This document shows, piece after piece, positions 1 through 63,193 of a stretch of DNA of 63,193 bases. Location of the stretch: the NCBI GenBank assembly GCA_015066975.1, contig SVNI01000002.1:1-63193 (forward strand), read 5' to 3'. Numbering within the stretch: the stretch's first letter is position 1; each line of letters begins with the position of its first letter. The notes under the pieces are model-generated. The model was not told where the DNA came from, searched no databases, and was given only the letters and a program-made list of their open reading frames with translations. The position numbers were made by a program, and so were the translations under genes. This stretch comes from Ruminococcus sp. Lineage in GTDB: Bacteria; Bacillota; Clostridia; Oscillospirales; Ruminococcaceae.

Positions 1-225
1 CTCTGTCGGTTCAGATTCTGTTTCTGTTTCGGATTCAGACTCTGTCGGTTCAGATTCTGTTTCTGTTTCGGATTCAGTTTCTGTCGGTTCAAATTCTGTT
101 TCTGTTTCGGATTCAGACTCTGTCGGTTCAGATTCTGTTTCTGTTTCGGATTCAGACTCTGTTTCTGTTTCGGATTCAGTTTCTGTCGGTTCAGATTCTG
201 TTTCTGTTTCGGATTCAGACGGAGC
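1..225 (-). repeat. SETETESEPTE linker repeat at contig edge
   Basis: This is the linker after the last visible ScaB cohesin, at least 74 residues of Ser/Glu/Thr/Pro repeats built from a short degenerate unit. The same unit fills 625-860 and 1258-1420. The sequence ends inside the repeat, so the true array length and the rest of the gene are unknown. Confidence 0.85.
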
Positions 226-3200
226 GATAACTTCAATCCAGCCGTTTTCGGTGAGAGGAGTCAGAACATTCATGTTGATGTCATAAACATCAAGACCATC
301 GAATGTCAGATTATACTTGCCAGGTTCAGTCGGAGCTGTGAAAGTTACATAGAATACAACCGCACCATCAGCAGGAATGATATTTTCAGCAGCACTGTAA
401 TTTGTGCCTGCAAATGTCATCTTGTCGATATTGGAAACGAAAGAAGTACCTGCATAAGCATCGCCGTTTTCAGAACCAGTAGCTACAGGGCCTGCATCCA
501 TGCCCATCTTCATGATGTAGCTGTTTAGACCGTTAACATCACCAGTAACAGTAACAGGAATTGTGACTGTAGCACCAGGTTCAACAGTTTCCTTGCCGAT
601 AATCCACATGCCAGCTTCGCCGATTTCAATCAGTTCTGTTTCAGTTTCTGTTTCTGTTTCGGATTCAGTTTCTGTCGGTTCAGATTCTGTTTCTGTTTCG
701 GATTCAGTTTCTGTCGGTTCAGACTCTGTTTCTGTTTCGGATTCAGTTTCTTTCGGTTCAGACTCTGTTTCTGTTTCGGATTCAGTTTCTGTCGGTTCAG
801 ATTCTGTTTCTGTCGGTTCAGACTCTGTTTCTGTTTCGGATTCAGACGGAGCGATAACTTCAATCCAGCCGTTTTCTGTCAGAGGAGTCAGAACATTCAT
901 GTTGATGTCATAAACATCCAGACCGTCAAATGTCAAGTTGTACTTGCCGGGTTCTTCCGGAGCTGTGAAGGTTACATAGAATACAACCGCATCATCAGCA
1001 GGAATGATATTTTCAGCCTTATCGGTGTTAGTGCCTGCAAATGTCATCTTGTCGATATTGGAAACGAAAGATGTACCTGCATAAGCGTCACCGTTTTCAG
1101 CACCTGTTGCTACAGGGCCAGCATCCATGCCCATCTTCATGATGTAACTGTTGATACCGTTCTTATCACCGGTTACGGTTACAGGAATTGTAACAGTTGC
1201 GCCGGGTTCTACAGTTTCTTTACCGATAATCCACATACCAGCTTCGCCGATTTCAATCGGTTCTGTTTCAGTTTCTGTTTCGGTTTCGGATTCAGTTTCT
1301 GTCGGCTCAGACTCTGTTTCTGTTTCGGATTCAGTTTCTGTCGGTTCAGACTCTGTTTCTGTTTCGGATTCAGTTTCTGTCGGTTCAGACTCTGTTTCTG
1401 TTTCGGATTCAGACGGAGCGATAACTTCAATCCAGCCGTTTTCTGTCAGAGGAGTCAGAACATTCATGTTGATGTCATAAACATCCAGACCGTCAAATGT
1501 CAAGTTGTACTTGCCGGGTTCTTCCGGAGCTGTGAAGGTTACATAGAATACAACCGCATCATCAGCAGGAATGATATTTTCAGCCTTATCGGTGTTAGTG
1601 CCTGCAAATGTCATCTTGTCGATATTGGAAACGAAAGATGTACCTGCATAAGCGTCACCGTTTTCAGCACCTGTTGCTACAGGGCCAGCATCCATGCCCA
1701 TCTTCATGATGTAACTGTTGATACCGTTCTTATCACCGGTTACGGTTACAGGAATTGTAACAGTTGCGCCGGGTTCTACAGTTTCTTTACCGATAATCCA
1801 CATACCAGCTTCGCCGATTTCAATCGGTTCTGTTTCAGTTTCTGTTTCGGTTTCGGACTCTGTTTCAGTAACAAGTTCAGTTGTTTCTTCAGCGGATTCA
1901 GATTCTGTTTCTGTTTCAGATTCAGTCGGAGCGACAACTTCAATCCAGCCGTTTTCTGTCAGAGGAGTCAGAACATTCATGTTGATGTCATAAACATCAA
2001 GACCATCGAATGTCAGATTATACTTGCCAGGTTCAGTCGGAGCTGTGAAAGTAACTTCAAATACAACTGCGCCGTCAGCAGCAACGAGATTCTGATTCTT
2101 GTCAGTATTTGTGCCTGCAAATGTCATCTTGTCGATATTGGAAACGAAAGAGATGCCATCATAAGCACTGCCGTTTGCAGCAGACTCTGCAACAGGGCCT
2201 GCATCCATGCCCATCTTCATGATGTAGCTGTTCAGACCGTTGACATCACCAGTAACAGTAACAGGGATTGTAACAGTAGCACCGGGTTCAACAGTTTCCT
2301 TGCCGATAATCCACATGCCAGCATCGCCGATTTCAATCGGTTCTGTTTCAGTTTCTGTCTCGGTTTCAGTTTCTGTTTCAGATTCTGTTTCTGTTTCAGT
2401 CGGAGCAACAACTTCAATCCAGCCGTTTTCTGTCAAAGGAGTCAGAACATTCATGTTGATGTCATAAACATCCAGACCATCGAATGTCAGATTATACTTG
2501 CCGGGTTCAGTCGGAGCTGTGAAAGTAACTTCAAATACAACTGCGCCGTCAGCAGCAACGAGATTCTGATTCTTGTCAGTATTTGTGCCTGCAAATGTCA
2601 TCTTGTCGATATTGGAAACGAAAGAGATGCCATCATAAGCACTGCCGTTTGCAGCAGACTCTGCAACAGGGCCTGCATCCATGCCCATCTTCATGATGTA
2701 GCTGTTCAGACCGTTGACATCACCAGTTACAGTAACAGGAATTGTAACTGTAGCACCGGGTTCAACAGTTTCCTTACCGATAATCCACATGCCAGCATCG
2801 CCGATTTCAATCGGTTCTGTTTCAGTTTCTGTCTCAGTTTCGGATTCTGTTTCAGTCGGAGCGATAACTTCAATCCAGCCGTTTTCTGTTTCGGGAGTCA
2901 GGACAGACATATTGATGTCATAGATATCCAGACCGTCAAATGTCAGATTATATTTGCCGGGTTCAGTCGGAGCTGTGAAAGTAACTTCAAATACAACTGC
3001 GCCGTCAGCAGCAACGAGATTCTGATTCTTGTCAGTATTTGTGCCTGCAAATGTCATCTTGTCGATATTGGAAACGAAAGATGTACCTGCATAAGCACTG
3101 CCGTTTGCAGCAGATTCTGCAATAGGGCCTGCATCCATGCCCATCTTCATGATGTAGCTGTTCAGACCGTTGACATCGCCTTCTACAGTAACAGGGATTG

Positions 3201-6200
3201 TAACAGTAGCACCGGGTTCAACAGTTTCCTTACCGATAATCCACTTGCCAGCGGAGTCCGGAACAACAGATTCAGATTCTGTTTCTGTTTCAGATTCAGT
3301 CGGAGCAACAACTTCAATCCAGCCGTTTTCTGTTTCGGGAGTCAGGACAGACATGTTAATATCATAGATATCCAGACCGTCGAATGTCAGATTATATTTG
3401 CCGGGTTCAGTCGGAGCTGTGAAAGTAACTTCAAATACAACTGCGCCGTCAGTAGCAACAAGATTCTGATTCTTGTCAGTATTTGTGCCTGCAAATGTCA
3501 TCTTGTCGATATTGGAAACGAAAGAAGTACCTGCATAAGCACTGCCGTTTGCAGCAGATTCTGCAACAGGGCCTGCATCCATGCCCATCTTCATGATGTA
3601 GCTGTTCAGACCGTTGACATCACCTTCTACAGTAACAGGGATTGTAACAGTAGCACCGGGTTCAACAGTTTCCTTGCCGATAATCCACTTGCCAGCGGAA
3701 TCCGGAACGATAGATTCTGATGTTTCTTCAGTCGGAGCAACAACTTCAATCCAGCCGTTTTCTGTTTCGGGAGTCAGAACATTCATGTCGATGTCGTAAA
3801 CATCCAAACCGTCGAATGTCAGATTATACTTACCGGGTTCAGTCGGAGCAGTAAAGGTGACTTCAAATACAGTTGCGCCGTCAGCAGCAACGAGATTTTC
3901 GCTCTTGCCGTAGTTTGTAGCTGCGAAAGTCATCTTATCCGTATTGGAAACGAAAGCTGCATCTGCATAAGCATCACCAGCCTGAGCACCAGTCGGATTC
4001 GGGCCTGCATCCATGCCCATCTTCATCATATAGCTGTTGAGACCGTTGACATCACCAGTTACAGTAACAGGGATTGTAACAGTAGCACCAGGTTCAACAG
4101 TTTCCTTGCCAATAACCCATTTTCCGGCAGATTCTACAGGCTTCTTGTCCTTAACTTTAATCCAGCCATCTTCTGTCTGCGGAACAAGCTGAGTCATGTT
4201 GATATCTTCAAGGTCAATATCAGCAAACTTCAGATTATAGAGCGTACCAGGAGCAGCATCGTTTGGAACTTTGAATTCCATGTAGAATACATCACCGTCA
4301 GCAGCGATAATATTTTCATTCTTGCTGGAATTTGTACCGCCGAATGTCAGGTTCTTGAGATTTTTCTGGAGACCGAGTTCTGCATAAGCATCACCAGCAG
4401 AAGCACCTGTCAGTTCAGGACCTGCATCCTGAGTAATCTTGACAGTGTAGCTGTTCAGGCCGTCAGTATCGCCCTGAACGGATACCGGAACTTTAACAGT
4501 ATCGCCGGGTTCTACTTCTTCTTTGCCGATAATCCACTTGGCAGAAGTATCTTTCTTATTATGAACAAATTCTGTTTCAGATTCATCAGTATCGCCAATG
4601 ACTTCAATCCAGCCTGCTGTAGTCTTAGGAATGAGCTTGACCATTTCAGCATTGTAGACTTCAAGAGTCTCGAAATCAATCATATACTTGCCGGGTTCGG
4701 TCGGAGCTATAAATCTAACAGCGAATACTTCTCCATCACCGGTAACATTTTCACTACCTTCTGTGAAGCTTGTACCTGCAAATGTTCCTTTGCTTACATT
4801 TCTTGCAAAGCTGAAGACATCCATACGGTTGCCTGCGCCCTTGATGGTAACAGGACTGTCGAATGTAAGTTTTGTAAGATAGCTGTTAAAGCCGTCTGTA
4901 TTGCCGTTTACACTGATATCGAGTACGACTTCTGCGCCGGGTTCTACAGTATCGTGACCGATAATCCATTCTGTATCAACAGCTTTTTCCTGCTGAACGA
5001 ATTCAGTTTCTTTAACTTCTTCAGTTTCTGTTACCTTTTCAGTTTCGGTTTCAGTAACTTTTTCTGTTTCAGTTTCTGTCACATCTTCACCGCCGGGAAT
5101 GGTGATAGAACCAGCAGTCAGTGTCAAAGAAGGCATCAGATTTTCTTTTGCTTCATTGGAGAAAATCGGATAGTAATCATCAGTTGTGGCAGTATCAAAT
5201 GTTACTTTGTATACAGTACCGGGGGTATAGGTTACACCTTCCTTTGGCAGGAATGTGAAAGTCAAAGCAGATGCGCCGTCTTTGCACTGGTCGTCGCCGA
5301 GGTCAGCAGTACCCTGAATTGCAAGAGAAACAAAGCCTCTTTCCGTATTCGGAACAACAGCCTGTACTCTGGAGTAACCGCCGCCGTTTCTAATGCCGTC
5401 GCATACGAACGGGCAATCCGGGTCATCCAGTGTCTTGCCGTCAATCAGCAGACGGAACTGTACACCATAAGTACCGGGGTCATTATAAACTCTGACAGGA
5501 ACATCAACATAGCTGTCTTCGTTGCTTGCATCCGGGTCAGCGAATTCTACATCATCCACTTTCCAAGTATAACCATCACTGACAGCAGGTGCATCTGTTG
5601 CAGCTTCTGTCGGTGCATTTGTCGGAGCTTCTGTAGAAACTTCTGTCGGAGCTTCTGTAGCAGTCTCAGTAGTATCCGGTTCACCGCCGGGAATGGTGAT
5701 AGAACCAGCGGACAGCGTCAGAGACGGCATCAGGTCTTCTTTCGCTTCATTGGCGAAAATCGGGCTATAGCCGTCAACCTTAGTAGTATCGAATGTTACC
5801 TTGTACGTAGTACCAGGTGTATAGGTTACACCTTCCTTAGGCAGGAGAGTAAAAGTCAAAGCAGCCGCGCCGTCCTTGCACTGGTCATCGCCGAGGTCAG
5901 CAGTACCCTGAATTGCGAGAGAAACCAAGCCCATTGCAGTATTCGGAACAACAGCCTGTACTCTGGAGTAACCGCCGCCGTTTCTGATACCGTCGCATAC
6001 GAACGGGCAGTCAGGGTCATCAAGGGTCTTGCCGTCAATGAGGATACGGAACTGTACGCCATAAGTACCAGGGTCATTATAAACTCTGACAGGCACATCG
6101 ACATAGCTGTCTTCATCGCTTGCATCTGGATTTTCAAATTCTACATCATCAATCTTCCAGGTATAGCCTTCGGAAGCTGTTGCAATGACTGCATCAGCCG

Positions 6201-6294
6201 GAGAAAGGGCATTTAAAGCAGAAGCCGGGAGTGCGCCAACGGACATGGAAGCACACATGCACAACGCTGTCAATGCAGATAATATTCTCTTCAT
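1..6294 (-). CDS. scaB: ScaB-like giant scaffoldin, 3' end outside window
   Basis: Secreted structural protein of the cellulosome that binds dockerin-bearing partners through cohesin modules. The start at 6294 has an AAAGGA ribosome site ten bases upstream and is followed by a signal peptide (about residues 1-28, MKRILSALTALCMCASM...). The frame stays open to the window edge, so at least 2,098 residues. Two N-terminal cohesins (about 5690-6168 and 5092-5575; 'VDVPVRVYNDPGTYG' start, 'GSITIPGG' end) are nearly identical to the cohesin of the neighbouring ScaA. Ten further modules of a second type follow at about 4597-4975, 4157-4545, 3742-4130, 3313-3700, 2870-3250, 2412-2810, 1937-2325, 1425-1820, 855-1245 and 230-620 (WIIGKETVEPGATV start, ENGWIEV end). 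Linkers are Glu/Thr/Ser-rich (SETETESEPTE). R. flavefaciens ScaB also carries two cohesin types and binds ScaA dockerins; known versions have seven to nine cohesins. The C-terminus, where an anchoring dockerin would be expected, is not in the window. Confidence 0.85.
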   Translation of the reverse strand, partial: MKRILSALTALCMCASMSVGALPASALNALSPADAVIATASEGYTWKIDDVEFENPDASDEDSYVDVPVRVYNDPGTYGVQFRILIDGKTLDDPDCPFVCDGIRNGGGYSRVQAVVPNTAMGLVSLAIQGTADLGDDQCKDGAAALTFTLLPKEGVTYTPGTTYKVTFDTTKVDGYSPIFANEAKEDLMPSLTLSAGSITIPGGEPDTTETATEAPTEVSTEAPTNAPTEAATDAPAVSDGYTWKVDDVEFADPDASNEDSYVDVPVRVYNDPGTYGVQFRLLIDGKTLDDPDCPFVCDGIRNGGGYSRVQAVVPNTERGFVSLAIQGTADLGDDQCKDGASALTFTFLPKEGVTYTPGTVYKVTFDTATTDDYYPIFSNEAKENLMPSLTLTAGSITIPGGEDVTETETEKVTETETEKVTETEEVKETEFVQQEKAVDTEWIIGHDTVEPGAEVVLDISVNGNTDGFNSYLTKLTFDSPVTIKGAGNRMDVFSFARNVSKGTFAGTSFTEGSENVTGDGEVFAVRFIAPTEPGKYMIDFETLEVYNAEMVKLIPKTTAGWIEVIGDTDESETEFVHNKKDTSAKWIIGKEEVEPGDTVKVPVSVQGDTDGLNSYTVKITQDAGPELTGASAGDAYAELGLQKNLKNLTFGGTNSSKNENIIAADGDVFYMEFKVPNDAAPGTLYNLKFADIDLEDINMTQLVPQTEDGWIKVKDKKPVESAGKWVIGKETVEPGATVTIPVTVTGDVNGLNSYMMKMGMDAGPNPTGAQAGDAYADAAFVSNTDKMTFAATNYGKSENLVAADGATVFEVTFTAPTEPGKYNLTFDGLDVYDIDMNVLTPETENGWIEVVAPTEETSESIVPDSAGKWIIGKETVEPGATVTIPVTVEGDVNGLNSYIMKMGMDAGPVAESAANGSAYAGTSFVSNIDKMTFAGTNTDKNQNLVATDGAVVFEVTFTAPTEPGKYNLTFDGLDIYDINMSVLTPETENGWIEVVAPTESETETESESVVPDSAGKWIIGKETVEPGATVTIPVTVEGDVNGLNSYIMKMGMDAGPIAESAANGSAYAGTSFVSNIDKMTFAGTNTDKNQNLVAADGAVVFEVTFTAPTEPGKYNLTFDGLDIYDINMSVLTPETENGWIEVIAPTETESETETETETEPIEIGDAGMWIIGKETVEPGATVTIPVTVTGDVNGLNSYIMKMGMDAGPVAESAANGSAYDGISFVSNIDKMTFAGTNTDKNQNLVAADGAVVFEVTFTAPTEPGKYNLTFDGLDVYDINMNVLTPLTENGWIEVVAPTETETESETETETETETETEPIEIGDAGMWIIGKETVEPGATVTIPVTVTGDVNGLNSYIMKMGMDAGPVAESAANGSAYDGISFVSNIDKMTFAGTNTDKNQNLVAADGAVVFEVTFTAPTEPGKYNLTFDGLDVYDINMNVLTPLTENGWIEVVAPTESETETESESAEETTELVTETESETETETETEPIEIGEAGMWIIGKETVEPGATVTIPVTVTGDKNGINSYIMKMGMDAGPVATGAENGDAYAGTSFVSNIDKMTFAGTNTDKAENIIPADDAVVFYVTFTAPEEPGKYNLTFDGLDVYDINMNVLTPLTENGWIEVIAPSESETETESEPTETESETETESEPTETESETETESEPTETESETETETETEPIEIGEAGMWIIGKETVEPGATVTIPVTVTGDKNGINSYIMKMGMDAGPVATGAENGDAYAGTSFVSNIDKMTFAGTNTDKAENIIPADDAVVFYVTFTAPEEPGKYNLTFDGLDVYDINMNVLTPLTENGWIEVIAPSESETETESEPTETESEPTETESETETESEPKETESETETESEPTETESETETESEPTETESETETETETELIEIGEAGMWIIGKETVEPGATVTIPVTVTGDVNGLNSYIMKMGMDAGPVATGSENGDAYAGTSFVSNIDKMTFAGTNYSAAENIIPADGAVVFYVTFTAPTEPGKYNLTFDGLDVYDINMNVLTPLTENGWIEVIAPSESETETESEPTETESETETESESETETESEPTESESETETEFEPTETESETETESEPTESESETETESEPTE
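841..1858 (-). repeat. 567-bp tandem duplication of a cohesin module
   Basis: About 450 bases starting at 841 recur starting at 1408 with no difference that I could find by eye, giving an exact 567-bp (189-codon) period. The duplicated part covers a whole cohesin module and the start of its linker; only linker length differs beyond it. This points to very recent unequal exchange or gene conversion within scaB. Confidence 0.85.
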
Positions 6295-6406: not shown

Positions 6407-8146
6407 TTAGCCCTGGCTCGGCAGAGAAGCTACCAGACCAATCAGGTACTTCAGGATTTCAACAGAGTCCTGGCCGTTGAGGTCAGCTTCTGTGGACTTG
6501 CCTTCACCGGGAGTCTTGTTACCTGCGCAGTTTGCAACTTCAACCTGATATGCATCCAGAGCCTGGTTGTCATACTTGGTGAGGAATCTGTTCAGCATAA
6601 CAATGTCAACGAGTTCAACAGTGCCGTTCTTGTTAACGTCGCCGTAGAGGTAATCGCCAATCGGAGCGGGTTCTGTTTCAGTAGGTTCAGCTTCTGTTTC
6701 AGTAGGCTCAGCTTCTGTTTCAGTAGGTTCAGCTTCTGTTTCAGTAGGTTCTTCACCGCCAGGAATTGTGATAGAACCAGCAGCCAGTGTCAGAGAAGAC
6801 ATCAGGTCTTCCTTAGCTTCGTTAGCGAAAATCGGGTTGTAACCTTCAGACTTAACAGCATCAAATGTTACCTTGTACTTAGTGCCAGGTGTATAAGTTA
6901 CGCCTTCCTTAGGCAGTAATGTGAATACGAGAGCGGATGCGCCGTCCTTGCACTGGTCATCGCCGAGGTCAGCAGTACCCTGAATTGCGAGGGAAACAAA
7001 GCCCATTGCAGTATTCGGAACAACAGCCTGTACTCTGGAGTAACCGCCGCCATTTCTGATACCATCGCATACGAACGGGCAATCCGGGTCATCCAGTGTC
7101 TTGCCGTCGATGAGGATACGGAACTGTACGCCGTAAGTACCGGGGTCATTGTAAACCAGAACAGGCAGGTCAACATAGCTGTCTTCGTTGCTTGCATCCG
7201 GATTTTCAAATACTACGTCATCAAGCTTCCATGTGTAGCCGTCGATTACGGTCTGAGTTTCTGTTTCAGTCGGTTCAGCTTCTGTTTCAGTCGGTTCAGC
7301 TTCTGTTTCAGTCGGTTCAGCTTCTGTTTCAGTCGGTTCAGCTTCTGTGGTTTCTTCTTCGCCGCCAACAATGATGGTCAAACCTTCTGTTGTGCCAGGC
7401 TTGTACTGAGTTTCACCGTCGCTGATGAACAGATACGGGTTTTCACCGTAGGAGTTTACGATAGTGTCATTAAATTCGATTGTATAAGTACCAGCTGTGA
7501 TAGCATCATCCAAACCAATTGTGAATTCAGTCATCGGGAAAGCATCAGAAGTATCGCCGAGGAAGTTTGCGGTTAATACAGTCGGGCTCAGAACAGGTGC
7601 CCAGCTCCATGAGAAGCCGCTTACACCAGTCTTGAGTGCGCTTGCATCAACGTCTTCCTGTGTCATAACCATGGTGTTGCCATCATAGTTGCCTCTCTTG
7701 TAAATACCGAATGTATTTACAAACTGACCAATAGTTGCAGTTTTGCCGCCAGCATAAGTATAAGTGATTTCTTCATCACCAGGAACAGCAACGTCCAGTT
7801 TTGCATTACCAAGACCGAAATGAATCATTTCGCTGTCGGTTGTTACCAGACCCAGAACCTGCTGGATTGTCGGATTTTCAGTGGGCATAGAAACGTATGC
7901 ATCAATACCGAGCTTTGCACCGGCAGCATCAGCTGCGCTTGCGAATGTAACAGTCTTGCCGTCTTCAGATACTGTGAAATTAGCTGTCTGCTGCTGCTTT
8001 CCATCGGGGGTGTAATAAGAGGTCGGATTTGCCTTCAGATAGAATGTGATGTCGCTCTCATTGTAAACAGCAAATGCGGACATTACGCTTGCGGACATAC
8101 TTGCTACCATTGTAGCGGCTGTCAGTGCAGAAATTACCTTCTTCAT
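6407..8146 (-). CDS. scaA: ScaA-like adaptor scaffoldin (N-module, cohesin, dockerin)
   Basis: Secreted scaffoldin of 579 residues that should hold a dockerin-bearing enzyme on its cohesin and plug into ScaB through its own dockerin. It has a signal peptide (1-27), an N-terminal beta-rich module (about 28-265, ending 'GLTIIVGG', perhaps a diverged cohesin), and a Glu/Pro/Thr linker with EAEPTET repeats. A cohesin follows at about 305-465 ('VDLPVLVYNDPGTYG' to 'GSITIPGG'), then a second EAEPTET linker and a C-terminal dockerin from about 500 (GDVNKNGTVELVDIVMLNRFL). The second dockerin repeat (ADLNGQDSVEILKYLIG) is about four residues short in its calcium loop. The cohesin is almost identical to the first two of ScaB. 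A good AGAAAGGA ribosome site precedes the start. Order and domain plan match scaA of the R. flavefaciens sca cluster; only one clear cohesin is present. Confidence 0.82.
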   Translation of the reverse strand: MKKVISALTAATMVASMSASVMSAFAVYNESDITFYLKANPTSYYTPDGKQQQTANFTVSEDGKTVTFASAADAAGAKLGIDAYVSMPTENPTIQQVLGLVTTDSEMIHFGLGNAKLDVAVPGDEEITYTYAGGKTATIGQFVNTFGIYKRGNYDGNTMVMTQEDVDASALKTGVSGFSWSWAPVLSPTVLTANFLGDTSDAFPMTEFTIGLDDAITAGTYTIEFNDTIVNSYGENPYLFISDGETQYKPGTTEGLTIIVGGEEETTEAEPTETEAEPTETEAEPTETEAEPTETETQTVIDGYTWKLDDVVFENPDASNEDSYVDLPVLVYNDPGTYGVQFRILIDGKTLDDPDCPFVCDGIRNGGGYSRVQAVVPNTAMGFVSLAIQGTADLGDDQCKDGASALVFTLLPKEGVTYTPGTKYKVTFDAVKSEGYNPIFANEAKEDLMSSLTLAAGSITIPGGEEPTETEAEPTETEAEPTETEAEPTETEPAPIGDYLYGDVNKNGTVELVDIVMLNRFLTKYDNQALDAYQVEVANCAGNKTPGEGKSTEADLNGQDSVEILKYLIGLVASLPSQG

Positions 8147-8271: not shown

Positions 8272-9081
8272 TCAGAGTGTTAACAGACCAACAATAGCCT
8301 TCATGATGTTCAGGGCATCGGAAGCATCCGGCTTGCCATCTTTATTGATGTCACCGTTAATCAGGCCCTGGCCTTCGAGGTTTTCCTTACCAAGAATAGC
8401 TTTATTGACTGTGATAACATCGAGAATATCTACGCTGCCGCTGAGGTCAGCGTCGCCCATGAGGGTAGTGCCTTCCGGTTCGGTATTGGGTTCACTGCCG
8501 ACAACAACAGCACCTGCGGAAGCTGTTACGCTGTAGTTTGTAATAGTTCCGTCAGAAGCCATGTTACCAATGTAGATTTCGGTATTGGGTGTGCCAGAAC
8601 CTTCATAGGTTTCACGGCTGATGCCCTTGATAGCAACATCATAAGTACCGTCTGCCACACCATCATTTACCTTACCGGTCAGTGTCAGGAAAGTGCCGTC
8701 TTTAGTTACCCAATAAGCAGTATCATCAAGAGCAACACCATAAGTAACAGTAACAGTACCAGCTACGGAATAATCTGCATCAAATACAGTCACGCCGTCG
8801 AAGCCTTCCTGAGCAGAAGCAGATGTGTTGACAATATCGCCAGCAGTTGCACCTGTAATGGTGAGAGCAGAAGCATCATAAGTCAGTTCAAATTCAGCAC
8901 CGCTGATACCAGCAGCCGGAACACCGGACAGCTTGACAGCCATTGTGAATTCAGAACCTGCAGCAGCCTCCACCTTATCAGCACTTACGGTAACGGAATC
9001 AGCAGCAAATACATTCATAGCAGAGAATGTTGCCAACATGGAAACGGCAGCCATTGCGGCAGCGATTTTCCTTACTTTCAT
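8272..9081 (-). CDS. scaC: ScaC-like cohesin-dockerin adaptor
   Basis: Secreted adaptor of 269 residues: signal peptide (1-26), one cohesin (about 28-190, with the typical 'GISGAEFELTYDASALTI' core strands and a final GAVVVG strand), a short linker and a C-terminal two-repeat dockerin (GDADLSGSVDILDVITVNKA, then GDINKDGKPDASDALNIMKAIVG). In R. flavefaciens ScaC binds ScaA-type cohesins through its dockerin and uses its own divergent cohesin to recruit a different set of dockerin proteins, so it changes the composition of the complex. Its cohesin differs clearly from both cohesin types of ScaB. It is the first gene of the minus-strand sca cluster, with a ribosome site (AAAGGAGG) and a promoter about 135 bases upstream. 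Confidence 0.85.
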   Translation of the reverse strand: MKVRKIAAAMAAVSMLATFSAMNVFAADSVTVSADKVEAAAGSEFTMAVKLSGVPAAGISGAEFELTYDASALTITGATAGDIVNTSASAQEGFDGVTVFDADYSVAGTVTVTYGVALDDTAYWVTKDGTFLTLTGKVNDGVADGTYDVAIKGISRETYEGSGTPNTEIYIGNMASDGTITNYSVTASAGAVVVGSEPNTEPEGTTLMGDADLSGSVDILDVITVNKAILGKENLEGQGLINGDINKDGKPDASDALNIMKAIVGLLTL

Positions 9082-55970: not shown

Positions 55971-57329
55971 ATGATGAAAAAATATATGCGGTTTCTCACT
56001 GCTGTCTCTGCTGTCGCCATGATACTGAATCCCTGCGCTCTGCTTCCGGTACATGCTGAACACGTTCAGAAAATCGTCATTCTGGGAGACAGCATCGCTA
56101 CCGGAAAAAGCCTTGCAAAGGATGAAAAATCCTATGTCGATTTGCTAGAAGAATATACAAATATTCATGTGCAGAATTTCGCTCAGGATACTTACACCAC
56201 CGGCGATATTCTCTCCTGTATGCAGACTGCTCAGGTTCAGCAGGCACTCGCTCAGGCGGATGTCATCTGCATCAATGCCGGAGAACATGACATCATGGAC
56301 GGATTTCTTCTCACTGCCGATTCTTTTATGAAAGAATTCGCCTTTGAAAAATTTACAGATGTATTTCAGGCAAATCTTCCGGATTACGGCTTCACAGATG
56401 AAAATGACCTGATTCCCTATGCCAACGAAATGGCCTCTGCTATCCGCGCCAATCAGAAAACCGCCGGAGAAAATATTCTGCTCATCAATCAGGAACTTGA
56501 AAAATATCCTGATGCAAAAATCATCTACCAGACGGCTTATAACATGCTGGATACGCTTGATTTTATCGACACGCTTTCCGCTAAAAGAAAATCTGCTTAC
56601 AACGGCATTCTGAATCCTGCAAAAACAACTCTCAAAACCTATCTTAATGATAATATCACACAGTTTGCACAGGAACACGAAAGCTGCATCCTGATAGATA
56701 CCTGCACCGGATTTTCCGGAAATGCATGGCAGTATACCAATCTGTATGATTTGGAACTGAACCCCACAGCTTCCGGTCATGCATGGATTGCAGATACTAT
56801 CATCAAAGAAGCAAATCTTTCCAGAACCGGAGATGTGAATGCAGATACCTCTGTCAATGCTTCTGATGCTGCCAATGTTCTTCAACATGCCGCCAATATC
56901 GGCGCAGGCGGAAACGGGCTTTTCAATGATGATGAACTGAAAGGCGCAGATGTGGACGGTGACGGCACTGTCAATTCCCGTGATGCTTCACAGATTCTGA
57001 TTTATGCCGCCTGGGAAGGTTCTGGTAAACACTATTTTTTTCTGAAAGCTGATGAGTCAGAGCTGGCTGACCCTGACCCCACTCAGCCCACTGATACTGA
57101 ACTTGCTGACCCCGACCCTACTCAGCCTACCGATACCGAACTTGCTGACCCCGACCCTACTCAGCCTACCGATACCGAACTTGCTGACCCCGACCCTACT
57201 CAGCCCACTGATACTGAACTTGCTGACCCTGACCCTACTCAGCCCACTGATACCGAACTTGCTGACCCCGACCCTACTCAGCCTACCGATACCGAACTTG
57301 CCGACCCTGACCCCGTTCAGCCGGTCTGA
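55971..57329 (+). CDS. SGNH/GDSL hydrolase with internal dockerin and C-terminal repeats
   Basis: Secreted protein of 452 residues: signal peptide (1-29), an SGNH-fold esterase domain (about 32-275: block I 'VILGDSIATGKS', block III position 'INAGEHDIMDG' and block V 'LNPTASGHAWIAD' with the catalytic His) and a two-repeat dockerin (about 282-352, 'GDVNADTSVNASDAANVL', 'DVDGDGTVNSRDASQILIY'). A tail of seven 13-residue units (ADPDPTQPTDTEL) completes it. Block III has Glu where family members usually have Asn, which may change activity. Typical substrates are acetyl or other esters on plant polysaccharides. The tail after the dockerin is unusual, since dockerins normally end the protein. Confidence 0.86.
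   Translation: MMKKYMRFLTAVSAVAMILNPCALLPVHAEHVQKIVILGDSIATGKSLAKDEKSYVDLLEEYTNIHVQNFAQDTYTTGDILSCMQTAQVQQALAQADVICINAGEHDIMDGFLLTADSFMKEFAFEKFTDVFQANLPDYGFTDENDLIPYANEMASAIRANQKTAGENILLINQELEKYPDAKIIYQTAYNMLDTLDFIDTLSAKRKSAYNGILNPAKTTLKTYLNDNITQFAQEHESCILIDTCTGFSGNAWQYTNLYDLELNPTASGHAWIADTIIKEANLSRTGDVNADTSVNASDAANVLQHAANIGAGGNGLFNDDELKGADVDGDGTVNSRDASQILIYAAWEGSGKHYFFLKADESELADPDPTQPTDTELADPDPTQPTDTELADPDPTQPTDTELADPDPTQPTDTELADPDPTQPTDTELADPDPTQPTDTELADPDPVQPV
57058..57326 (+). repeat. 39-bp in-frame repeat array
   Basis: Seven units of about 39 bases encode ADPDPTQPTDTEL, the last one shortened. The units are nearly identical, so the number may vary between strains. Confidence 0.9.
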
Positions 57330-60347: not shown

Positions 60348-63193
60348 ATGAAGAAGTCATTTCTGAACAGAGCAATGGCTGCTGCAATTGCAGTTCCGGT
60401 TGCTTTGTCACAAACTGTTCTGTTTGCTTCCTTTGCTGCTGGTGAAACAGCTACAACAGCTACAGAATCTACTGTTTTCAATATTGACACATTTCTTAAT
60501 GTTCCAGTAGAAAACAGCAAAGTTTCTCCTATCACACAGGTAGCAGACAACGGTGACACACTCGTTTATGAAAAGAATTCCATCTGGAACAGCAAACTGG
60601 CAACAGCGATGAACACGCTGGAAAGTACTAATCAGGCTTTGGATACTGAATCTGTTCTCAACAGCATTGGTTCTCTGGAAGGCAAATGGTACAAGGACAT
60701 TCTGGTAAAAGCAATTTCTGCCAATGCTGAAATCGCTGACCAGAAAATCACTGTTACTTTTGATGTGAACTTCGACGAAGAAGCACAAGACCTTCTGAAA
60801 GACGAAATGATTCGCATCATTGTTGGTGAAAATTCCACCCTTGATGAGAACATCGTAAAAGCTAACATAACTGCTGATGTTGCTGCTGATTCCTTCGGCA
60901 AAATCACTTTAACAATCGATACTGCTAATCTAAATGCTGACGGTTCTGTTTCTTATACAGTGAGTGCTGTAACAGATGCAGGCGAAATCAAGACTGTTGA
61001 AGCTTTTGATGCTTATCTCGACAGCAAAATTAAGGCTTACAGAGATGAATTAGTTGATGATGCTCAGCTCATTGTCGATTATTATCAGGAAAAACTTGAT
61101 GAAGCTTCCAGTGCTGCACTTGTTGCTAATTATCAGAAACAGCTTGATGATGCTCACTACCTGATGGAAACAGCTATTGACAAGATGGTCAATAACTACT
61201 ACAAACAGGAAAACAAGCTGACTAACAAGCTGACTAACCTGACCACTAAGGAATTCGCAGAACAGACCCAGTCTTCCTATGATGATGCACTGGCTGCTGT
61301 TTCCGGTCAGCTTTCTACTGCTAAGACAAAGATTCCGGATTCTGTTGATGCTCTGGTAAACAGTGCTACTGTCAACAAGGTTTATAACGAAGTACTGAAG
61401 CAGCTCAACAGTATTATTTCTGCTCAGGGCTACGCTATTGACGTAACTCTGGCTGATATCGCCAATGTTGCAAAGACTGCTGAAGAAGTAACTGTTACTG
61501 AAAGCCTTGTAAACGGCAAAGGCAGTATCTTTACAGAAGCTTATCTCGCTGATGTGCTTACAGAAGCTGAATCTGAATACTACTACAGCTACTTTGAAGA
61601 ACTGCTTGCCGATAAGCTCGCTGCTGAAAATAAAGAAATCAAGGACATCACAACCAAAAAGATGTATGAAGCCAATATCGGTGCAGATTACAGCACACTT
61701 TCTGGTTCTGCTGACCTCGCTATTAAGAGAATTATCACTGTAACTCTGGAAGATGTTCAGGAATCTACTGAAGAGTCAACAGAAGAATCCGTTGAAGACT
61801 CCACAGAAGAATCCGTTGAAGATTCTACTGAAGAATCTGTTGAAGATTCCACTGAAGAATCCGTTGAAGATTCTACTGAAGAATCTGTTGAAGATTCCAC
61901 TGAAGAATCTGTTGAAGATTCCACTGAAGAATCCGTTGAAGATTCTACTGAAGAATCCGTTGAAGATTCCACAGAAGAATCTGTTGAAGATTCCACAGAA
62001 GAATCCGTTGAAGATTCTACAGAAGAATCCGTTGAAGATTCCACTGAAGAATCCGTTGAAGATTCTACTGAAGAATCCGTTGAAGATTCCACAGAAGAAT
62101 CCGTTGAAGATTCTACTGAAGAATCCGTTGAAGATTCTACTGAAGAATCTGTAGAAGATTCCACAGAAGAATCCGTAGAAGATTCCACAGAAGAATCCGT
62201 TGAAGATTCTACTGAAGAATCTGTAGAAGATTCCACAGAAGAATCCGTTGAAGATTCCACTGAAGAATCCGTTGAAGATTCCACTGAAGAATCAACCGAA
62301 ATCAGTGAATATGGTCTCTGGTCTATCGGTACTGCTACCGTAGCTCCCGGCGAATCTGTTACAATTCCTGTAACTATCACAGGCGATAAGAACGGTATCG
62401 GTAGCTATATGGTGAAAATCGGCGCAGAAGGCGTTACCGCTACCGGCGCAGAAGTAGGCAATGCTTATACTGATTTAGCATTCGTTTCCAATCTGGATAA
62501 TCTGACTTTCTCTGGTACAAATAATGCCCTTACTGAAAATCTTCTTGCTGAAGATGGTGCTGTTGTATTCTATGTAACATTCACCGCTCCGGAAGAAGCT
62601 GGTACTTATGACTTGACATTCGACGGCTTTGAAGTTTATGATGTAAATATGACTGCTTTGAATCCTCAGACTGAAAACGGCTGGATTAAGGTTGTCGCTC
62701 CTGATGATTCCACAGAAGAATCCGTTGAAGATTCCACTGAAGAATCCGTTGAAGATTCCACTGAAGAATCCGTTGAAGATTCTACTGAAGAATCCGTTGA
62801 AGATTCCACTGAAGAATCTGTAGAAGATTCCACTGAAGAATCTGTAGAAGATTCCACTGAAGAATCCGTTGAAGATTCCACTGAAGAATCCGTTGAAGAT
62901 TCTACTGAAGAATCTGTAGAAGATTCCACTGAAGAATCCGTTGAAGATTCCACTGAAGAATCTGTTGAAGATTCCACTGAAGAATCCGTTGAAGATTCCA
63001 CTGAAGAATCCGTTGAAGATTCCACTGAAGAATCCGTTGAAGATTCCACAGAAGAATCCGTTGAAGATTCCACAGAAGAATCCGTTGAAGATTCCACAGA
63101 AGAATCCGTTGAAGATTCCACTGAAGAATCCGTTGAAGATTCCACTGAAGAATCCGTTGAAGATTCCACTGAAGAATCCGTTGAAGATTCCAC
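60348..63193 (+). CDS. Scaffoldin-like protein with ScaB-type cohesin, 3' end outside window
   Basis: Secreted protein, at least 948 residues, running off the right edge. Signal peptide (1-32). Residues about 33-470 form a mainly helical domain with coiled-coil-like stretches ('YRDELVDDAQLIVDYYQEKL', 'EFAEQTQSSYDDALAAVSGQ') that I do not recognise. Next comes an acidic array of about 22 octapeptides (STEESVED, residues 471-649), then one cohesin (about 650-785, 'GLWSIGTATVAPGESVTIPV' to 'ENGWIKV') close to the second type in ScaB, and a further array of at least 20 octapeptides. The cohesin should bind the same class of dockerin as the ScaB repeats, probably that of ScaA. Whether more cohesins or an anchor follow cannot be seen. 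The start has GAGAGAGG nine bases upstream. Confidence 0.82.
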   Translation, partial: MKKSFLNRAMAAAIAVPVALSQTVLFASFAAGETATTATESTVFNIDTFLNVPVENSKVSPITQVADNGDTLVYEKNSIWNSKLATAMNTLESTNQALDTESVLNSIGSLEGKWYKDILVKAISANAEIADQKITVTFDVNFDEEAQDLLKDEMIRIIVGENSTLDENIVKANITADVAADSFGKITLTIDTANLNADGSVSYTVSAVTDAGEIKTVEAFDAYLDSKIKAYRDELVDDAQLIVDYYQEKLDEASSAALVANYQKQLDDAHYLMETAIDKMVNNYYKQENKLTNKLTNLTTKEFAEQTQSSYDDALAAVSGQLSTAKTKIPDSVDALVNSATVNKVYNEVLKQLNSIISAQGYAIDVTLADIANVAKTAEEVTVTESLVNGKGSIFTEAYLADVLTEAESEYYYSYFEELLADKLAAENKEIKDITTKKMYEANIGADYSTLSGSADLAIKRIITVTLEDVQESTEESTEESVEDSTEESVEDSTEESVEDSTEESVEDSTEESVEDSTEESVEDSTEESVEDSTEESVEDSTEESVEDSTEESVEDSTEESVEDSTEESVEDSTEESVEDSTEESVEDSTEESVEDSTEESVEDSTEESVEDSTEESVEDSTEESVEDSTEESVEDSTEESVEDSTEESTEISEYGLWSIGTATVAPGESVTIPVTITGDKNGIGSYMVKIGAEGVTATGAEVGNAYTDLAFVSNLDNLTFSGTNNALTENLLAEDGAVVFYVTFTAPEEAGTYDLTFDGFEVYDVNMTALNPQTENGWIKVVAPDDSTEESVEDSTEESVEDSTEESVEDSTEESVEDSTEESVEDSTEESVEDSTEESVEDSTEESVEDSTEESVEDSTEESVEDSTEESVEDSTEESVEDSTEESVEDSTEESVEDSTEESVEDSTEESVEDSTEESVEDSTEESVEDSTEESVEDSTEESVEDS
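61759..62294 (+). repeat. 24-bp octapeptide repeat array, first block
   Basis: About 22 units of 24 bases encode STEESVED and form a strongly acidic linker. Synonymous changes vary between units. The antisense strand is also open across the array (a 207-residue frame), which is a side effect of the repeat. Confidence 0.92.
62707..63193 (+). repeat. 24-bp octapeptide repeat array, second block at contig edge
   Basis: At least 20 units of the same STEESVED repeat follow the cohesin and run to the window end. The sequence stops mid-unit, as expected if assembly failed in the repeat. Confidence 0.92.

Follow-up and report, generated by a model that had tools for sequence, protein, structure and literature searches.

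A CttA-type protein with a ScaB-type cohesin in its repeat linker: a putative adhesin/scaffoldin hybrid in a ruminococcal genome

A cttA-type gene in this genome encodes a ScaB-type cohesin flanked by two arrays of linker repeats. We think it likely that a cttA gene gained this cohesin within its repeat linker and that the product combines adhesin and scaffoldin in one surface-anchored protein, the binding functions of which are putative. CttA, ScaB, and ScaE are already known; the novelty is the cohesin within CttA. Our literature search found no description of a cohesin-bearing CttA in those portions of the papers that it covered. The stretch of DNA analyzed, referred to here as the window, comprises bases 1 to 63193 of contig C47 (124,576 bases) and comes from an uncultured relative of Ruminococcus from the gut, with a genome of 2.61 Mb in 179 contigs that is 96.5% complete.

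The reading frame of the cttA-type gene starts at position 60348 on the plus strand and is open for all 948 codons up to the window edge, which coincides with a run of 10 N's inside the gene. Past this gap, the frame continues unchanged to a stop at C47:64175, giving a protein of 1,275 amino acids that includes a few X's. The portion beyond the gap encodes 7 further STEESVED copies followed by an X module and a dockerin (XDoc). From N terminus to C terminus, the order is signal peptide (recognized by eye), N-terminal domain, STEESVED array, cohesin, second STEESVED array interrupted by the gap, X module, and dockerin. The features within the window are as follows.

60348..63193, plus strand: 5' three quarters of the cttA-type gene (open reading frame; the rest lies outside the window, to C47:64175)
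60348..60443, plus strand: signal-peptide-like start, MKKSF...VPVALSQT (alignment of 29 sequences; by eye)
60444..61757, plus strand: N-terminal domain, homologous to the N-terminal region of R. flavefaciens CttA (profiles, model)
60996..61247, plus strand: two-helix coiled coil in the N-terminal domain (model residues 185 to 268; alignment)
61776..62279, plus strand: STEESVED array 1, 21 copies (repeat count)
62304..62702, plus strand: ScaB-type cohesin (Pfam, PDB match, identity to the ScaB cohesins of the same genome)
62709..63188, plus strand: STEESVED array 2, 20 copies up to the scaffold gap (repeat count)

The signal-peptide-like start is the best-conserved stretch of the family in the alignment of 29 sequences. 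The gene and scaC share a contig, with 51 kb between the end of scaC and the start of the gene. A preliminary description of this DNA had proposed a secreted, scaffoldin-like protein of unusual plan, equipped with STEESVED arrays and encoded far from the sca cluster. The signal-peptide-like start, the two arrays, and the distance to scaC bear this out. The unusual plan also stands, with the addition of the XDoc end, which was invisible beyond the gap.

The linker contains 48 STEESVED copies in all. They are built from 11 different 24-base units, and every copy reads exactly STEESVED; the variation is therefore wholly synonymous, suggesting that the tether is under selection at the protein level. 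Among cttA-type proteins, the linker repeats vary by species (STEESVED, SES, SETETE, PTDET, DDTTST, and more) and the flanking domains are conserved. A single cohesin is seen in the gene; the true length of the gap in array 2 is not fixed by the assembly, and further modules, including cohesins, could hide there.

The segment at 62319-62693 matched the Pfam cohesin family at 41.1 bits (cutoff, 24.1). The cohesin was missing from the results of a Pfam scan of the whole protein, an omission probably caused by the effect of the repeats on the HMMER filters. The best PDB match was 5n5p_A (E, 4.7e-4), which is cohesin 5 of FD-1 ScaB according to the excerpted text of PMC5934362. Comparison with the ScaB encoded in the same genome gave identities of 55 to 61% to cohesins 5 to 12, 46% to cohesin 4, 38% to cohesin 3, and 25 to 27% to cohesins 1 and 2, in agreement with the earlier view that the cohesin is akin to the ScaB repeat type. 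Cohesins 5 to 9 of FD-1 ScaB are described as binding the ScaA dockerin in the excerpts of PMC5301203 and PMC5934362, and the C-terminal dockerin of ScaA may likewise bind the cohesin of the CttA-type protein. Alternatively, this could be an authentic cohesin with a specificity of its own that docks a different dockerin, on an enzyme, a protease, or another surface protein, rather than ScaA. The CttA cohesins of the window genome (G000) and of its sister genome G161 share, at five contact-equivalent positions, residues that none of ScaB cohesins 5 to 12 has there (CttA versus ScaB: 807, N/K; 811, S/A; 814, N versus T/Y; 852, E/D; 856, V/I). Further, of the 13 positions that correspond to cohesin-dockerin contacts in FD-1, 7 differ between this cohesin and cohesin 10 of the same genome's ScaB, although such a transfer of contacts is weak at only 26% identity to the reference, FD-1 cohesin 5. 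Nevertheless, the class is clearly that of ScaB cohesins 5 to 12, and position 811 is still small and not Lys, the Lys change being a specificity determinant reported in the available part of PMC5934362. We consider a separate specificity possible but doubtful, and we retain ScaA as the candidate partner.

The N-terminal domain comprises approximately 440 residues, over which no Pfam family scored above its cutoff. Of the 38 genomes examined in the genus, 31 (the source genome included) encode it; its mean column identity is 30% in the alignment of 29 sequences. A single-sequence search of a family sample found it in 3 of 148 genomes and 1 of 123 genera. A scan of named genomes yielded 32 loci, all from uncultured or metagenome-assembled organisms and many from the rumen or other herbivore guts.

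Profile comparisons linked this domain to CttA. We screened 80 genomes of the R. flavefaciens-type genus, 54 of which had a match to the Pfam family CttA_N (PF18244), and chose from them, not at random, 20 cttA-like stretches, one per genome, that had either a frame of ~700 to 870 residues or two XDocs close together. All 20 matched a profile of the N-terminal domain that included the signal peptide. We then applied a stricter profile of 29 sequences, with the signal peptide excluded, the single row from the R. flavefaciens-type genus removed, and the first 60 residues of each target cut. The E value was below 1e-3 for 19 of the 20 genes in the cttA position; it was 0.0036 for the remaining one, L163. 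Against the CttA of locus L162, the stricter profile scored 52.9 bits, with an E value of 1.7e-16 that refers to a small, local collection of frames; the maximum over 500 shuffles of this stretch was 3.7 bits. The XDoc of L162 is 99.5% identical to the 4wkz chain across 195 amino acids, and its ScaE matched 4iu2_A with an E value of 1.9e-131; L162 is therefore the CttA of R. flavefaciens FD-1 or of a very close strain. Profile-profile alignment (hhalign) gave a probability of 99.7 and an E value of 1.4e-25 over 356 columns, with a query that retained one row from the R. flavefaciens-type genus and a template in which 2 of the 16 rows were untrimmed at the linker. A sortase-signaled gene was found by motif at five of the six cttA loci inspected in that genus. 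Because direct BLASTP of the window N terminus against the L162 protein was not significant (best E, 0.70), the homology rests on the profiles and on gene order. By these sequence criteria, the kinship is remote but solid. The preliminary description had treated the N terminus as unrecognized and had allowed that it might prove to belong to a noncellulosomal family; its match is instead to CttA, with which gene order and the XDoc end agree.

Structure prediction for the window domain (30 sequences) gave a confident model with a mean pLDDT of 91.4 and a pTM of 0.83. The fold is mixed α/β and includes a two-helix coiled coil (model residues 185 to 268 of 438); it is not simply the helical domain that had been supposed. 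The length of the coiled coil differs widely among relatives; L107, which lacks a long one, was modeled with a pLDDT of 89.5 and a pTM of 0.84. Comparison of these two models with the PDB gave no match, to a carbohydrate-binding fold or any other, at an E value of ≤0.001. CttA is said to hold two carbohydrate-binding modules (CBMs) in the accessible text of PMC5301203, PMC4266597, and PMC4081043. The N-terminal model appears as a single unit by pTM, and a profile comparison of its two lobes did not reveal a duplication of the kind expected of two repeated CBMs. Since there is neither a solved match at that threshold nor a sign of repeated CBMs, the claim of cellulose binding is borrowed from the literature. 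The domain might instead be a stalk or an adhesin for a target other than cellulose, such as the host, other microbes, or other polysaccharides, with CttA-like cellulose binding failing in this genus. Its rapid divergence (72% identity between the window and G161 proteins, compared with 91% for the XDoc), the variable coiled coils, and the lack of a match to a solved carbohydrate-binding fold at that threshold would fit such a role. We regard it as rather unlikely, given the profile homology with CttA, the cttA position of the gene in relatives, and the description of CttA as cellulose binding in the same three sources.

The other end of the protein is also of CttA type. Its C-terminal 265 residues scored 24.8 bits against PF18244 (cutoff, 25), and in the genome search the gene reached 26.5 bits, above that cutoff. 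PF18244 has three places in the genome, namely, the cttA-type gene and a locus on contig C53 above the cutoff and a locus on contig C152 below it. The best solved relatives of the XDoc were 4wkz (E, 1.8e-5) and 4iu2 (E, 2.8e-5), the chains of which are named cellulose-binding protein; 4IU3, with the same chain as 4iu2, is the X module plus dockerin of CttA according to the available part of PMC7456326. The dockerin recognition segments of the CttA-type protein (NAADAASILKYAA and NAGDSASILKYAA) are similar to those of ScaB from the same genome (NANDAAIVLKYAA and NAGDSAFILKYAA). The C53 locus (minus strand, L085:7799-10834) encodes a third XDoc protein of 1,011 residues, composed of BspA-type leucine-rich repeats, a middle part with no domain assignment, and the XDoc.

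The product of the next gene (C47:64284-65258) is 324 residues long. It has a signal-peptide-like N terminus and a T/S linker, and its C terminus reads by eye as an SPKTG-hydrophobic-KKK sorting signal. The same sortase-signaled gene directly follows the cttA-type gene in all 12 loci with downstream sequence, this one included; a 13th complete cttA-type gene, L065, stops near a contig edge and is outside this count. As a single-sequence query, the window's neighbor found nothing useful. A profile of eight neighbor proteins matched ScaE among solved cohesins (2zf9_A; E, 2.3e-5) and, weakly, 4iu2_A (E, 0.067). With a predicted ScaE-type cohesin and a sortase signal, the neighbor can be classed as ScaE-like. 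Between the two genes is a very strong hairpin: the stretch of 111 bases there (C47:64175-64285; L025:4376-4486) has a folding energy of -32.9 kcal/mol and a z score of -5.5 relative to shuffled sequences. The hairpin might act as a terminator or an attenuator, permitting unequal expression of the two genes.

The sca cluster lies at the other end of the window.

1..6294, minus strand: scaB, cut by the contig end (last cohesin and XDoc most likely at C152:3-1505)
6407..8146, minus strand: scaA (domain scan; candidate partner)
8272..9081, minus strand: scaC, with cohesin and dockerin (marks the sca cluster)

The segment C152:3-1505 (L029:3-1505) begins with the scaB linker repeat, which is followed by a cohesin, an X module, and a dockerin; C152 therefore most likely holds the lost end of ScaB, and the assembly has probably broken scaB at its ESETETESEPTE linker, leaving it on two contigs. 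In their sequences, cohesins 1 and 2 of this ScaB resemble the ScaA cohesin, and cohesins 3 to 12 resemble the other type. The cttA-type gene is outside the sca cluster here, and the probable scaB end is not followed by a cttA-type gene. The published order is scaC-scaA-scaB-cttA-scaE, as given in the excerpt of PMC4081043. At locus L114, scaB with its XDoc is followed by a cttA-type gene and then by a gene for a ScaE-like sortase protein. In genome G184, one contig carries scaC, scaA, scaB (by eye, with N's in scaA), and the start of a cttA-type gene, and a second carries an XDoc end with a similar linker and then a scaE-like gene. The cttA-type gene is thus in the cttA position, between scaB and scaE, in L114 and, over two contigs, in G184.

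Several other cohesin and dockerin genes are present in the source genome. A small protein encoded at C47:100609-101415 (L215:2610-3416; minus strand) combines a ScaE-type cohesin-like domain with a type I dockerin; similar small proteins occur in several relatives and are possible adaptors. On the minus strand of C5 (L026:4474-6768), a 764-residue protein contains leucine-rich repeats, a dockerin, and a cohesin, in that order. Window positions 55971-57329, near the cttA-type gene, encode a GDSL-lipase-like protein that carries a dockerin and a tail of PTDTELADPDPTQ repeats.

To place the cohesin among CttA-type proteins, we searched with a local cohesin profile with filters off. No cohesin was found in any of 29 other complete CttA-type proteins; the best hit was partial (E, 0.0027; 9.1 bits). 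This set comprised 12 proteins from the genus and, once three with split frames had been set aside from the 20, 17 from the R. flavefaciens-type genus. The two positives, the window protein and that of G161, scored 172 to 180 bits and are themselves members of the profile. A cohesin search of 12 relatives matched 10, and a close copy within the cttA-type gene was present only in G161, a sister genome from roe deer rumen with the same insertion (tree support, 100/100). Because cohesin-free relatives have the N-terminal domain, the XDoc, and the neighbor, the cohesin is the newcomer. The gain is not datable more closely, since the genes of the nearest neighbors are cut in the linker.

The converse origin, a second, reduced ScaB that lost most of its cohesins and acquired a CttA N terminus, would account for the ScaB-type cohesin and the ScaB-like XDoc. 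It is very improbable, since the XDoc is 42% identical to that of the genome's own ScaB against the 91% shared with G161 CttA, and since the N-terminal domain, XDoc, and scaE-like neighbor are common to relatives that lack the cohesin (the neighbor is present at 11 other loci, and 12 genes of the genus are cohesin free). We also considered an assembly artifact in which repeats joined a fragment of ScaB to a cttA gene. In its favor, 18 of the 31 family genes in the genus are truncated by a contig end, the break lying in the linker in 15 cases, and here there is an N gap within the gene. However, no N's interrupt the stretch that leads from the N-terminal domain through array 1 and the cohesin to the 20th copy of array 2, and STEESVED flanks the cohesin on both sides, whereas the scaB linker is different. 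The independent G161 assembly has an N-terminal domain, linker, cohesin, and further array on a single contig, with its XDoc end on another; its linker repeats are different, and its cohesin is 83 to 86% identical to that of the window. An artifact is therefore highly unlikely, and a cohesin gained by a cttA gene remains our preferred explanation.

From the observed domain order, homology, and gene order, we infer how such a protein might work. The CttA-type protein would be secreted. Its C-terminal XDoc would bind the cohesin of the neighboring gene's ScaE-like product, a protein that sortase would link to the cell wall. The acidic STEESVED arrays would serve as long flexible tethers. At the outer end, the N-terminal domain would, by homology, grip cellulose as is reported for R. 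flavefaciens CttA. The cohesin between the tethers would dock a partner that has a dockerin; the likeliest one is ScaA, together with its enzymes, which ScaB docks in the same manner. A single molecule would then unite substrate grip with enzyme recruitment on one anchor. The strongest version of this model, a ScaE-anchored adhesin turned scaffoldin that combines on one chain a cohesin of shifted specificity and a cellulose-gripping domain with a fold lacking a solved counterpart, is tentative, and we hold it to be unlikely in full.

A cohesin-bearing CttA would place grip, anchor, and enzyme dock on a single chain. The pair of sister species allows the gain of the cohesin to be compared with cohesin-free relatives, and the CttA N-terminal region now extends to a second genus, with a confident model.

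Ruminococcal scaffoldins lack a recognized cellulose-binding module in the parts of PMC2930009, PMC3672088, and PMC11557425 that were available, and in two of these sources CttA provides the grip separately. R. flavefaciens CttA likewise has a signal-peptide-like start, a homologous N-terminal region, a repeat linker, a C-terminal XDoc, and an adjacent scaE. The window protein differs from it in having a ScaB-type cohesin between two arrays, a long coiled-coil insert, and a locus 51 kb away from the sca cluster; its cellulose binding is putative. If the model holds, grip and recruitment on one polypeptide would be a function like that of the clostridial primary scaffoldins that bear a CBM, such as A. 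thermocellus ScaA (PMC11557425, in excerpt). Compared with those, the window protein has one cohesin and a sortase-linked XDoc-ScaE anchor (predicted), no CBM3 was found in it, and common ancestry of the N-terminal regions is not evident. The name of a putative scaffoldin of Ruminococcus sp. ERACg_42, "6x cohesin_I-CttA" (PMC7480376, in excerpt), joins cohesins with CttA; compared by name alone, its "CttA" is probably the Pfam X-module family CttA_N, which would imply a ScaB-like plan and not a CttA N terminus with one cohesin. ScaB, in R. flavefaciens and in this genome, is similar in cohesin class, XDoc type, and recognition segments. ScaB and the window protein therefore probably use the same ScaE anchor, which makes the scaB product a candidate co-user. 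The window protein differs from ScaB in having one visible cohesin instead of many, a CttA N terminus, and a separate locus.
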